DNA of 64,000 nucleotides, from assembly GCF_003752415.1 (NCBI RefSeq), contig NZ_RKHG01000001.1:2232001-2296000 (forward strand), written 5' to 3'. Position 1 is the first letter of the stretch, and each line of letters starts with the position of its first letter. The position numbers and the translations under genes were made by a program. Shown here piece after piece: positions 2,244 to 7,737 of the stretch. Origin of the DNA: Luteococcus japonicus (lineage in GTDB: Bacteria; Actinomycetota; Actinomycetes; Propionibacteriales; Propionibacteriaceae). Under the pieces are notes generated by a model. It was not told where the DNA came from and did no database searches. It saw only the letters and a program-made list of their open reading frames with translations.

Positions 2244-2261
2244 GTTGATTGAGTGATCAAC
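2244..2261. promoter_or_regulatory. Short inverted repeat upstream of deacetylase gene
   Basis: GTTGAT-6-ATCAAC, arms perfect, 25 bases before the ATG at 2286 and in the divergent intergenic space. It is placed like a repressor operator, but the arms are only 6 bp and no regulator lies beside it. Confidence 0.25.
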
Positions 2262-2285
2262 AGATCTGCGTGGAATCATGGGCCC

Positions 2286-3086
2286 ATGAGCACGATCGTC
2301 TTCTTCCACGCCCACCCCGACGACGAGGCCTCCGGCACCGCGGGATCCATGGCTCGCGCCGTCCAGCAGGGAGACCGGGTGATCGTCGTCTTCGCCACGA
2401 ATGGTGACCACGGCGAGGTCCCCGACGACCTGCGCGAGGGCGAGACCATCGTCGACCGACGCCGTGCGGAGGCGCAGGCCTCCGCCGAGGTGATCGGCAC
2501 CCACCGCGTCGAATGGCTCGGTTACACCGACTCCGGCATGACCGGCTGGGAGATGAACGACGCCCCCGGCGCCTTCCATGGCGCGGACCTGGACGAGGCG
2601 GCGGCCCGGCTGGCGCGGATCCTCGACGAGGAGGAGGCCGACGTCCTGGTGGGCTACGACTGGCACGGCAACTACGGCCACCCCGATCACGTCAAGGTGC
2701 ACCCCGTCACCTACCGGGCCGCCGCCCTCGCGAGGCGTCGTCCCCGCATCCTGGAGGTCACCATCAACCGGGACCTGACCGCGCGGATGATGCAGGCCGC
2801 CCAGGACGCGGGCATGGACATGGCCTTCGACCCCGCCGGTCCCGCCGACGACGGCAACCCGATGGGCACCCCGGAGAAGGAGATCCACTGGGCCGTCGAC
2901 GTCGCGGACCAGGCCTCCACCAAGCGGCGGGCGCTGCTCTGCCACGCCAGCCAGAAGTCAGACGTGGGCATGATCACCGGTTTCCCGGAGAACGTCTTCC
3001 GCCAGATGTTCGGCATGGAGTTCTACCGCGAGCACGGCAACCCCAACGGGATGGTGACCGGCTGGCCTTTCACGCCGCTGGGCTGA
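2286..3086 (+). CDS. PIG-L family N-acetylglucosamine deacetylase-like amidase
   Basis: Zn-dependent amidohydrolase of the PIG-L/LmbE fold, 266 aa. The N-terminal metal motif HAHPDDEAS (residues about 7-15) and the second metal motif GNYGHPDHVKVH (about 126-137) are both intact. The ATG at 2286 gives the usual family start (STIVFFHAHPDDE); an in-frame ATG at 2253 would add an unconserved leader. Family members cleave N-acetyl groups from GlcNAc-containing molecules (MshB) or amides of mycothiol S-conjugates (Mca). Because a second PIG-L domain fused to MshA lies 1.7 kb away, a mycothiol-related detoxification role is possible, but this subfamily is not clearly Mca. Three 24-bp tandem repeats begin in its last codons. 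Confidence 0.8.
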   Translation: MSTIVFFHAHPDDEASGTAGSMARAVQQGDRVIVVFATNGDHGEVPDDLREGETIVDRRRAEAQASAEVIGTHRVEWLGYTDSGMTGWEMNDAPGAFHGADLDEAAARLARILDEEEADVLVGYDWHGNYGHPDHVKVHPVTYRAAALARRRPRILEVTINRDLTARMMQAAQDAGMDMAFDPAGPADDGNPMGTPEKEIHWAVDVADQASTKRRALLCHASQKSDVGMITGFPENVFRQMFGMEFYREHGNPNGMVTGWPFTPLG

Positions 3087-3144
3087 CTTCCGTTCCCGCC
3101 GCTGGACTGGCTTCCGTTCCCGCCGCTGGGCTGGCTTCCGTTCC
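3073..3144 (+). repeat. 3 x 24-bp tandem repeat over a stop codon
   Basis: Three contiguous 24-bp units (consensus CGCCGCTGG[G/A]CTG[A/G]CTTCCGTTCC) run from the last codons of the deacetylase gene through its TGA into the intergenic space. Only unit 1 carries the TGA; units 2 and 3 have TGG at the matching place. It ends directly against a GAGCCTGTCGAG repeat arm. Confidence 0.85.
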
Positions 3145-3159
3145 CCGAGCCTGTCGAGG
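3144..3159 (+). repeat. Palindromic-repeat arm CCCGAGCCTGTCGAGG
   Basis: Single 16-nt arm identical to the right arm of the element inside the mshA-mshB gene (4964-4979), including the preceding CGTTCC. It sits just past the prs stop codon (3162) between converging genes. Confidence 0.7.
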
Positions 3160-3161
3160 AC

Positions 3162-4740: not shown

Positions 4741-6831
4741 TCAGCCGCGGGCCAGGCCGACGGAGGTGACGATCTGCTCGAGCTGCCCGCCGGAATGCAC
4801 CACCTCGGTGCCATTGGGCTGGACGGTCAGCTGGGTGGCGTGGTGCCGCAGGGCTGCGGCGACGACGGGAAGCGTCTCGGGAAGGTCGAACCACTGGACC
4901 TCGACGGGCTCGGGCGTCGGGGTTTCCGAGTCCTCGTTTCCCGAGTCCACCGCAATCCCGTTCCCCGAGCCTGTCGAGGGGCTGTGGCGTATCTCGGCAA
5001 AGCGCACCCCCGCCTGACGTGCCGCTTCGCGCGCCACCTCGTGCATCCGTACATGGTCCGGGTGCCCGTAGCCGCCATTGGCGTCATAGCTGACCATCAG
5101 GTCCGGCTGCCACCGTTCGATCAGCGCGACGAGGTCTGCCGTGCACTCCTCGGGGGCGGCGAAGGTGAAGCTGCGCTCGTCGGTGGCGTCGGCGGGGCCG
5201 GCCAGCCCGGGGAGGATCCATTCCATGCCGGAATCGCGGTAGAGCCGAGTGGGCAGCCCCGCGGCACGTGCCGGAGCGGTACCCAGGAAGGCGTGCCGTT
5301 CGACGCCCAGCTCGCGCAGTGCGCCGGCCAGCTCACCGATCCGGTGCTCCTCCAGTTCCGGCGTACCGGCCAGGTGGGACAGCGGCCCCTCGACCACCTC
5401 GCCCATCTCCCCGCGGGTCGCGGTCGCCAGGTCACAGGCGATGCCACGGGAGACCAGGTGGGTGATCAGCGCGCCGGTGGACAGCGTCTCGTCGTCGGGA
5501 TGTGCGTGGCAGAACAGGACGCGTCGCACGCCGTCGAGCAGTGATGCGGTTGCGACGGGCTCTTCCGCCACCCCGCGCGTGGCGGGTCCGTTCGCGAGCA
5601 GCGCGACGTACTGCTCCTCAAGCTGCCGGGCGACGTCGTCCCAGCCGAAGGTCAGCGCCCGCTCCCGTCCTGCGCGGCCCATGGTGCACAGCCGTTCCGG
5701 ATCCTCGAGCAGTTCGGTCAGTACCCGGGTCCAGGCTTCGGCGGTGCGTTCGGCCACCAGTACGCCGGTGACGCCGTCGTCGACCACTTCGCGCAGGCCG
5801 CCGGAATCGGCGCTGACCACGGGGACGCCGGAGGCCTGCGCCTCCATCGCGATCAGCCCGAAGGTCTCGGAGAAGGACGGCACCAGCACCGCTCGCGCGC
5901 CGCGCAACAGGCGGGCCAGGTCCTCCCGGGACTGCGATCCCAGCCAGCAGGTCTGGTGCGCGATGCCCAGGTTCTGGGAGAGGTCGATCAGCTCGTCGCG
6001 GTAGCTGGCGAAGTCCTGGCTGGCCTCGCCCGCGATCACCAGGGTTGGGCGGATCTCCTCGGGAAGCCCTGCCACCGCCACCAGCGCCAGGTCAGGGGCC
6101 TTGAGTGGCTGCAGCCGGGCGGCGAAGAGCAGGTAGCCGTTGGGGTTGGGCTGCACGCACACCGACCCGAACTGGCGCGGTTCATCGGGGCTGTTCTGCT
6201 CCGGATTCCACGGACGGCAGTGCCCGTCCAGCGGATGGAAGAGCTCGGTGTCGACGCCGGGATGCACCACGACGACGCGTGATGGATCCGCGCCGCAGCG
6301 CTCGACGATCGTCGACGCCTCGTACTGGCTGACGGCGACCACCAGGTCCGACTGGCTGGCGATCAACCGCTCACCGGCATTGCGGCCGGGAGACTCGGGC
6401 GGCTCTCCCTCGCTCAACGGGTCACCGGGCAGCGCGGCCACCGAGTGGAAGCTCTGCACGTGCGGTACACCCCATTGCTGCGCGACGGGCAGTGCCGCCA
6501 CTCCGCTCATCCAGTGCTGCGAATGCACGACCTCGTAGGGTTCCAGCTGGGCCAAGGCTCGGGAGAAGCCCTCGATCCACTCCTCCTGGGCGCTCTTGGC
6601 CAGGGCTTCGGTGGGGCCGGCGGTCAGCTGTTGGACAGTGACCCCGGGGTGGATCTCCACCACGTCGGGCAGTTCGGTGTTGTCCCTGCGTGTGACCAGC
6701 TCTACGACGTGGCCGCGGTCGGCCAGCGCCTTGGCCTGGTGCACCTCGACGACATTCATGCCACCGGCATCCTTGGAGCCGGGGGAGTCGAGCGGCGAGG
6801 TGTGCAGCGAGATGAAACCGATGCGTGCCAT
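4741..6831 (-). CDS. Fused MshA glycosyltransferase - MshB deacetylase (mycothiol biosynthesis)
   Basis: Single 696-aa frame with two enzymes. Residues 1 to about 425 are a GT4 glycosyltransferase resembling MshA (SLHTSPLDSPGSKDAGGMNV at the start, VVHPGVDTELFHPL, and the donor-site region PSFSETFGLIAMEAQASGVP). MshA joins UDP-GlcNAc to inositol 3-phosphate. Residues from about 437 are a PIG-L deacetylase resembling MshB (FCHAHPDDETLSTGA, EEHRIGELAGALRELGV, YDANGGYGHPDHVRMHE), which deacetylates GlcNAc-inositol. These are consecutive-type reactions of mycothiol synthesis, with a phosphatase step between. No stop or restart codon separates the domains. An 81-nt palindromic repeat lies in frame inside the MshB part (residues about 618-644). 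ATG start at 6831. Domain identities are from motif recognition. Confidence 0.85.
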   Translation of the reverse strand: MARIGFISLHTSPLDSPGSKDAGGMNVVEVHQAKALADRGHVVELVTRRDNTELPDVVEIHPGVTVQQLTAGPTEALAKSAQEEWIEGFSRALAQLEPYEVVHSQHWMSGVAALPVAQQWGVPHVQSFHSVAALPGDPLSEGEPPESPGRNAGERLIASQSDLVVAVSQYEASTIVERCGADPSRVVVVHPGVDTELFHPLDGHCRPWNPEQNSPDEPRQFGSVCVQPNPNGYLLFAARLQPLKAPDLALVAVAGLPEEIRPTLVIAGEASQDFASYRDELIDLSQNLGIAHQTCWLGSQSREDLARLLRGARAVLVPSFSETFGLIAMEAQASGVPVVSADSGGLREVVDDGVTGVLVAERTAEAWTRVLTELLEDPERLCTMGRAGRERALTFGWDDVARQLEEQYVALLANGPATRGVAEEPVATASLLDGVRRVLFCHAHPDDETLSTGALITHLVSRGIACDLATATRGEMGEVVEGPLSHLAGTPELEEHRIGELAGALRELGVERHAFLGTAPARAAGLPTRLYRDSGMEWILPGLAGPADATDERSFTFAAPEECTADLVALIERWQPDLMVSYDANGGYGHPDHVRMHEVAREAARQAGVRFAEIRHSPSTGSGNGIAVDSGNEDSETPTPEPVEVQWFDLPETLPVVAAALRHHATQLTVQPNGTEVVHSGGQLEQIVTSVGLARG
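4899..4979. repeat. 81-nt palindromic element inserted in frame in the MshB domain
   Basis: Arms CCTCGACGGGCTCGGG (4899-4914) and CCCGAGCCTGTCGAGG (4964-4979) are inverted copies matching at 15 of 16 positions. The element is 81 nt, exactly 27 codons, and reads through as a Ser/Thr/Pro/Glu/Gly-rich segment (STGSGNGIAVDSGNEDSETP) not expected in MshB. The same arm occurs alone at 3144-3159. Confidence 0.8.
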
Positions 6832-6882: not shown

Positions 6883-7737
6883 CTATGCCGGGGCGATGGT
6901 GACCAGGCTGATCTGGGACTGGTCGAACAGGCGCAGGGGGGCGGTCTGGCCCACTCCGGAGTCAATCCACAGCTTCGAGGTGCCCACGTCGAACAGCCCC
7001 TTGTCATAGTGCGGGAACCAGCCCTGCCCCGGCGCGATGATGCCGCCGATGCCGGGAATGCGCACCTGCCCGCCATGGGTGTGCCCGCAGATGGCCAGGT
7101 CCGCAGGGCTCTTGGCCAGGTCGGGATGGATCTCCGGGGAATGGGTCAGGACCAGCCGGTAGGCATCCTCGCGGGTGGCCGCCATGGCCTCGGTCAGGTC
7201 TCCGTGCTCGGTGTAGTAGTCGTCGGTGCCGATGACGTCGAGCTTCCCCCAGGCTCCGTCGAGGCGTTCGTGCCGGTTCAGCAGGACCGTTACCTTGTTG
7301 CCTTCCAGCATGTCCAGCACGGCGGGGTAGTGGTCGCCCCAGTGGTCGTGGTTGCCGGGGACGGCGTAGACCGGGATGCCGGTGGCGACGAGCTTGGCGA
7401 ACCAGGCGTCGACGCGGGACATGTCCGTGGTGGTGGTGTTCACGAAGTCACCGGTGACGGCGATCAGGTCCGGCTCCTGTTCCTGCGCCATCCGGATCAC
7501 GTCGTCGCGCTGCGGGGTGAAGCGCAGTGTGTGCAGGTCCGTGATCTGCAGGACCTTGAGCGGGCGGCCGGTGACCTTGGTGCTGGTGAGCTCCAGCCGC
7601 TCCAGCTTCGTGTGGGTCACCTCGTACCAGCTCATGCCGACGACGACGGCCAACAGCACCACGCCGGTCAGCAGGAGTCGCAGCAGCCATCGCCATGGAC
7701 GACGGGGACGACGGGCCGGGGACTGTGCGCTGCTCAC
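6883..7737 (-). CDS. Membrane-anchored metallophosphoesterase
   Basis: Calcineurin-like phosphoesterase, 284 aa. An Arg-rich cytoplasmic start is followed by one membrane helix (about residues 18-38), so the catalytic domain probably faces outward. Metal-binding motifs appear in order: ITDLH (about 69), GDFVN (about 96), GNHDHWGDH (about 130), THSPEIHPD (about 188) and GHTHGGQVRIPG (about 218). This arrangement matches the YkuE/YaeI type, whose members act on phospholipid or undecaprenyl-type substrates or are uncharacterised. It starts at the ATG at 7737, with the tRNA-Gly gene upstream. Substrate cannot be told from sequence. Confidence 0.85.
   Translation of the reverse strand: MSSAQSPARRPRRPWRWLLRLLLTGVVLLAVVVGMSWYEVTHTKLERLELTSTKVTGRPLKVLQITDLHTLRFTPQRDDVIRMAQEQEPDLIAVTGDFVNTTTTDMSRVDAWFAKLVATGIPVYAVPGNHDHWGDHYPAVLDMLEGNKVTVLLNRHERLDGAWGKLDVIGTDDYYTEHGDLTEAMAATREDAYRLVLTHSPEIHPDLAKSPADLAICGHTHGGQVRIPGIGGIIAPGQGWFPHYDKGLFDVGTSKLWIDSGVGQTAPLRLFDQSQISLVTIAPA

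Follow-up and report, generated by a model that had tools for sequence, protein, structure and literature searches.

A fused gene for a probable entry enzyme of mycothiol biosynthesis

A single gene of Luteococcus japonicus was found to encode an MshA-like GT4 glycosyltransferase and an MshB-like PIG-L deacetylase in one protein, which is quite likely the bifunctional entry enzyme of mycothiol synthesis. The fusion is predicted to join the first sugar-transferring enzyme of this pathway with its deacetylase, and probably does so. The gene lies in a stretch of 64,000 nucleotides (the window) from a closed genome of 3.45 Mb with a completeness of 99.96%. The initial annotation had described a single frame of 696 amino acids with several motifs but had named no strand; the frame is present, on the minus strand. 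It runs uninterrupted from the ATG at position 6831 to the stop at 4741 (coding 4744-6831), and its product contains the motifs SLHTSPLDSPGSKDAGGMNV (residues 8-27), HAHPDDETLSTGA, EEHRIGELAGALREL and NGGYGHPDHV. In a Pfam search, the protein showed a GT4 domain (Glycos_transf_1, 6e-36) followed by a PIG-L domain (8e-25). The features of the locus are the following:

4741-6831 (minus): fused gene, type II MshA-like GT4 and type II MshB-like PIG-L, 696 aa and stop
5596-6825 (minus): GT4 (MshA-like) half, residues 3-412
5524-5595 (minus): inter-domain linker, residues 413-436; AlphaFold confidence low at 418-428
4744-5523 (minus): PIG-L (MshB-like) half, residues 437-696; the profile covers MshB positions 1-157 only
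5491-5502 (minus): HPDD zinc/catalytic motif, residues 444-447
5053-5070 (minus): YGHPDH motif, residues 588-593; G as in MshB, against P in Mca
4906-4977 (minus): in-frame insertion, residues 619-642; predicted to be disordered, holds a copy of a dispersed repeat
2253-3086 (plus): separate type III PIG-L paralogue, outside the fusion

Profile matches and the mycothiol genes of the genome

The curated equivalog cut-offs of NCBI are 462.5 bits for MshA (TIGR03449), 224.35 bits for MshB (TIGR03445) and 277 bits for Mca (TIGR03446). The best NCBIfam match of the GT4 half is MshA, with 326.6 bits (below the cut-off), and extends over residues 3-412 and positions 1-404 of the 406 in the profile; the second-ranked GT4 family reaches 102 bits. 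The PIG-L half has its best match in MshB, with 154.3 bits over residues 439-609, which is again below the cut-off and leaves the C-terminal half of MshB unmatched in the fusion protein. The Mca profile gives this half 84.6 bits, also under its cut-off. The resemblance of the two halves to MshA and MshB, claimed in the initial annotation, is thus confirmed, as the best profiles are these two and not those of unrelated subfamilies. The designation of the gene as a fusion of MshA and MshB holds in part: the best matches and the presence of the remaining pathway genes agree with it, but both halves score under the cut-offs and belong to subfamilies of their own, and they do not represent the textbook mshA and mshB. 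The low scores are accounted for by the trees, in which each half falls into its own well-supported subfamily, termed type II. The other type II GT4s likewise score under the MshA cut-off.

The genome encodes MshC (597 bits), MshD (256 bits) and a separate Mca (453.6 bits), all over their cut-offs. Searches of the same genome for separate mshA and mshB genes, whose presence would weigh against the proposed fusion, gave no canonical copy of either over the cut-off; the next MshA-like match reaches 120 bits, and the sole stronger match to the MshB profile (182.8 bits) is Mca. With MshC, MshD and Mca present and canonical MshA and MshB missing, the pathway can be complete only through the fusion or through some unrecognised enzyme. 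For the two steps that are missing, the fusion is the strongest candidate, and in the Luteococcus genome its type II halves have apparently taken the place of the textbook enzymes. BshA and BshB of bacillithiol synthesis represent identical enzyme classes and the same order of chemistry; however, the fusion matches them far more weakly (79 bits for BshA, 39 bits for BshB2), and the genome carries the mycothiol ligase MshC.

The GT4 half

The type II GT4s form a single clade with full support. In a tree rooted on sucrose-phosphate synthase (6KIH), whose branch is long, they group with canonical MshA, and a third MshA-like group falls outside (support 100/98). As judged from this sequence tree, the type II GT4s are the sister lineage of canonical MshA. 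The GT4 half shares with MshA of C. glutamicum (PDB 3C4Q, 3C48) the GT4 fold, a full-length profile match and residues that would contact UDP and phosphate. The best PDB match of its AlphaFold model, in which both domains of the fusion are confident (mean pLDDT 83), is C. glutamicum MshA 3C4Q, with a VIA Z score of 49.9 and an rmsd of 1.8 over 381 aligned residues; this comparison took in residues 1-416. The residues N25, K78, R154, R231, K236, E316 and E324 (C. glutamicum numbering) are conserved in 109 of 109 type II GT4s. These positions belong to the donor and acceptor contacts of MshA.

The half differs from MshA in its linkage or fusion to a deacetylase and in two positions of the acceptor pocket, where Y110 and T134 of MshA are replaced by H110 and S134. 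Both substitutions occur in all type II GT4s and constitute the signature of the type; the acceptor could therefore differ. A third MshA-like GT4 clade, spread across actinobacteria (L127-L146), carries F110 and A134 in the acceptor pocket and retains K78 and R154.

The PIG-L half

The PIG-L half shares with MshB of M. tuberculosis (Rv1170; PDB 1Q74, 1Q7T) the PIG-L fold and the motifs AHPDD, YGHPDH and RDSGM, and the nearest solved structures to its model, taken from the Foldseek list, are those of MshB (1Q7T, 4EWL). All 57 type II PIG-Ls examined keep AHPDD and the Y, H, D and H of YGHPDH, and HPDD and YGHPDH are both present in the fusion protein. These residues, like those of the GT4 half, presumably have the functions of their counterparts in the MshB and MshA structures. 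Unlike MshB, the PIG-L half has a shorter C-terminal half and is fused or adjacent to a GT4. It falls outside the canonical MshB clade: the type II PIG-Ls make up a clade of their own with 100% support, separate from canonical MshB, Mca and the third PIG-L type.

The position of this clade outside MshB and Mca would also fit a GT4 half that is a true MshA and a PIG-L half that serves as an accessory deacetylase or mycothiol-conjugate amidase, with MshB activity supplied by Mca or another PIG-L. Such enzymes are at hand, as the genome has both Mca, a PIG-L relative, and the third PIG-L. The occurrence of canonical MshB was followed within a survey of 197 Propionibacteriaceae genomes, co-occurrence being counted on the 135 with at least 95% completeness. 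Canonical MshB is kept in 42 of the 90 genomes with type II. In these, the PIG-L half may be redundant, have another function or divide the role with canonical MshB. Canonical MshB is lost in the other 48, whereas among the MshC genomes without type II it is kept in 23 of 24 and lost in one (Fisher, 4.8e-6, overstated by the relatedness of the genomes). Such a pattern of loss would be expected of a type II PIG-L that is able to take over from MshB. The motif also speaks for MshB, being YGHPDH where Mca has YPHxDH, as does the linkage or fusion of the PIG-L to the GT4 in most genomes. We consider the division of labour between a true MshA and an accessory PIG-L rather unlikely, and an MshB function of the PIG-L half is preferred.

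The type III PIG-L (2253-3086, plus strand) is situated 1.65 kb from the fusion. Since genomes lacking MshC also carry its relatives, it is probably not MshB.

Proposed order of the biosynthetic steps

The product of MshA is GlcNAc-Ins-phosphate, which must be dephosphorylated by the phosphatase MshA2 before MshB can act (PMC4360819; PMC9736012). We propose that the GT4 half would transfer GlcNAc from UDP-GlcNAc to 1L-myo-inositol-1-phosphate. A separate phosphatase would then remove the phosphate from GlcNAc-Ins-phosphate, and the zinc-dependent PIG-L half would deacetylate GlcNAc-inositol to GlcN-inositol, the substrate for MshC. The fusion protein would accordingly catalyse the first and the third step, and another enzyme would act as the phosphatase in between. 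The channelling of GlcNAc-inositol between MshA and MshB, suggested in the initial annotation, is weakened by the intervening MshA2 step (PMC4360819, PMC9736012), and simple channelling is not implied by the fusion. The gain would more likely lie in fixed 1:1 production and proximity than in proven channelling. The further suggestion that fusion lends support to the function of both halves stands, since GT4 and PIG-L are linked and have apparently been fused more than once, which supports the predicted functions.

Type II could alternatively represent an entry into mycothiol synthesis with an altered acceptor, for example free inositol in place of inositol-1-phosphate, in which MshA2 is bypassed and GlcNAc-inositol is passed directly from half to half; we regard this as quite improbable. 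Type II also frames the question whether the phosphatase step between MshA and MshB is needed.

A metallophosphoesterase gene immediately upstream of the fusion (window 6883-7737) was considered as MshA2 but is not supported in this role: of 113 loci, only those of the two Luteococcus species have it beside the pair. Apart from the GT4/PIG-L pair itself, no neighbouring gene at type II loci is widely common across genera.

Co-occurrence with MshC

Presence of an MshA-type GT4 and of MshC was compared in the 135 genomes (107/1/8/19). Both occur in 107 genomes and neither in 19, with nine exceptions (Fisher, 6e-16, a value that overstates independence because the genomes are related). Most MshC carriers among the 197 genomes have a GT4 about 50-57% identical to that of the fusion. 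Canonical MshA over the cut-off is restricted to a single genus (18 genomes), in which no type II GT4 occurs.

These data bear on the reading that the product of type II is a different glycosyl-inositol or another pseudodisaccharide and that its pathway accompanies the mycothiol genes without being part of mycothiol synthesis. The clade-wide acceptor-pocket substitutions and the profile scores under the cut-offs are compatible with such a product. So are three genomes (G111, G154, G188; L273, L274) in which MshC and canonical MshB are present and an MshA-type GT4 was not detected, and one (G009; L261, L219) in which the type II GT4 and PIG-L pair occurs beside a GT4 with the canonical MshA signature. 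All other type II genomes are without canonical MshA, and a different product would leave their MshC without a source of substrate. Together with the strong co-occurrence with MshC and the retention of K78 and R154 of the phosphate pocket, this makes a different product very improbable. With type II as the entry into mycothiol synthesis, a possible source of the precursor is explained for the many Propionibacteriaceae without a textbook mshA, which could be overlooked in surveys based on the genes of M. tuberculosis or on strict cut-offs.

Linkage and fusion in related genomes

No report of an MshA-MshB fusion was found in the open papers. The survey of related genomes, proposed with the initial annotation, found the same fusion or an adjacent pair: the tree contains 95 linked type II pairs, of which 24 are fused and 71 consist of neighbouring genes on the same strand, with the GT4 gene first. 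The fusion has counterparts elsewhere, and the type II genes are as a rule linked. One surveyed genome has a type II GT4 identical to that of an Arachnia propionica locus, which identifies the surveyed family as Propionibacteriaceae; further named relatives are found in Cryobacterium, Labedella, Mycetocola and Brachybacterium. On the GT4 tree, at least seven changes between the fused and the adjacent state, in either direction, are required. The linkers of the fused proteins range from 11 to 74 residues and have no common sequence, which suggests several fusions. GT4 and PIG-L appear from these sequences to have been joined repeatedly, and the two normally adjacent genes would have become one frame in Luteococcus as in several other lineages.

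A single genome showed the exact Luteococcus fusion, and in the one other species sampled from the genus the two genes are separate and adjacent; a sequencing or assembly artefact is nonetheless hardly credible, given the closed genome, the open, in-frame linker and the recurrence of fusions in many other genomes, closed ones included. Single-frame homologues in other genomes exclude a chance frame or an assembly accident as a general explanation.

The PIG-L frame of the same-genus relative (L161, 1578-3347, minus strand, 590 aa) continues into a domain of the GH13 alpha-amylase type at a locus that contains Ns; this run-on may be a further fusion or an artefact of assembly. The insertion at residues 619-642 is missing from this relative. 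It contains a copy of a 20-base repeat with 28 exact copies in the genome and none in the reversed control. Copies of this GC-rich dispersed repeat (CCCCTCGACAGGCTCGGGGA) are located on the minus strand of the window at 4958-4981, in frame within the PIG-L half, and at 3138-3161.
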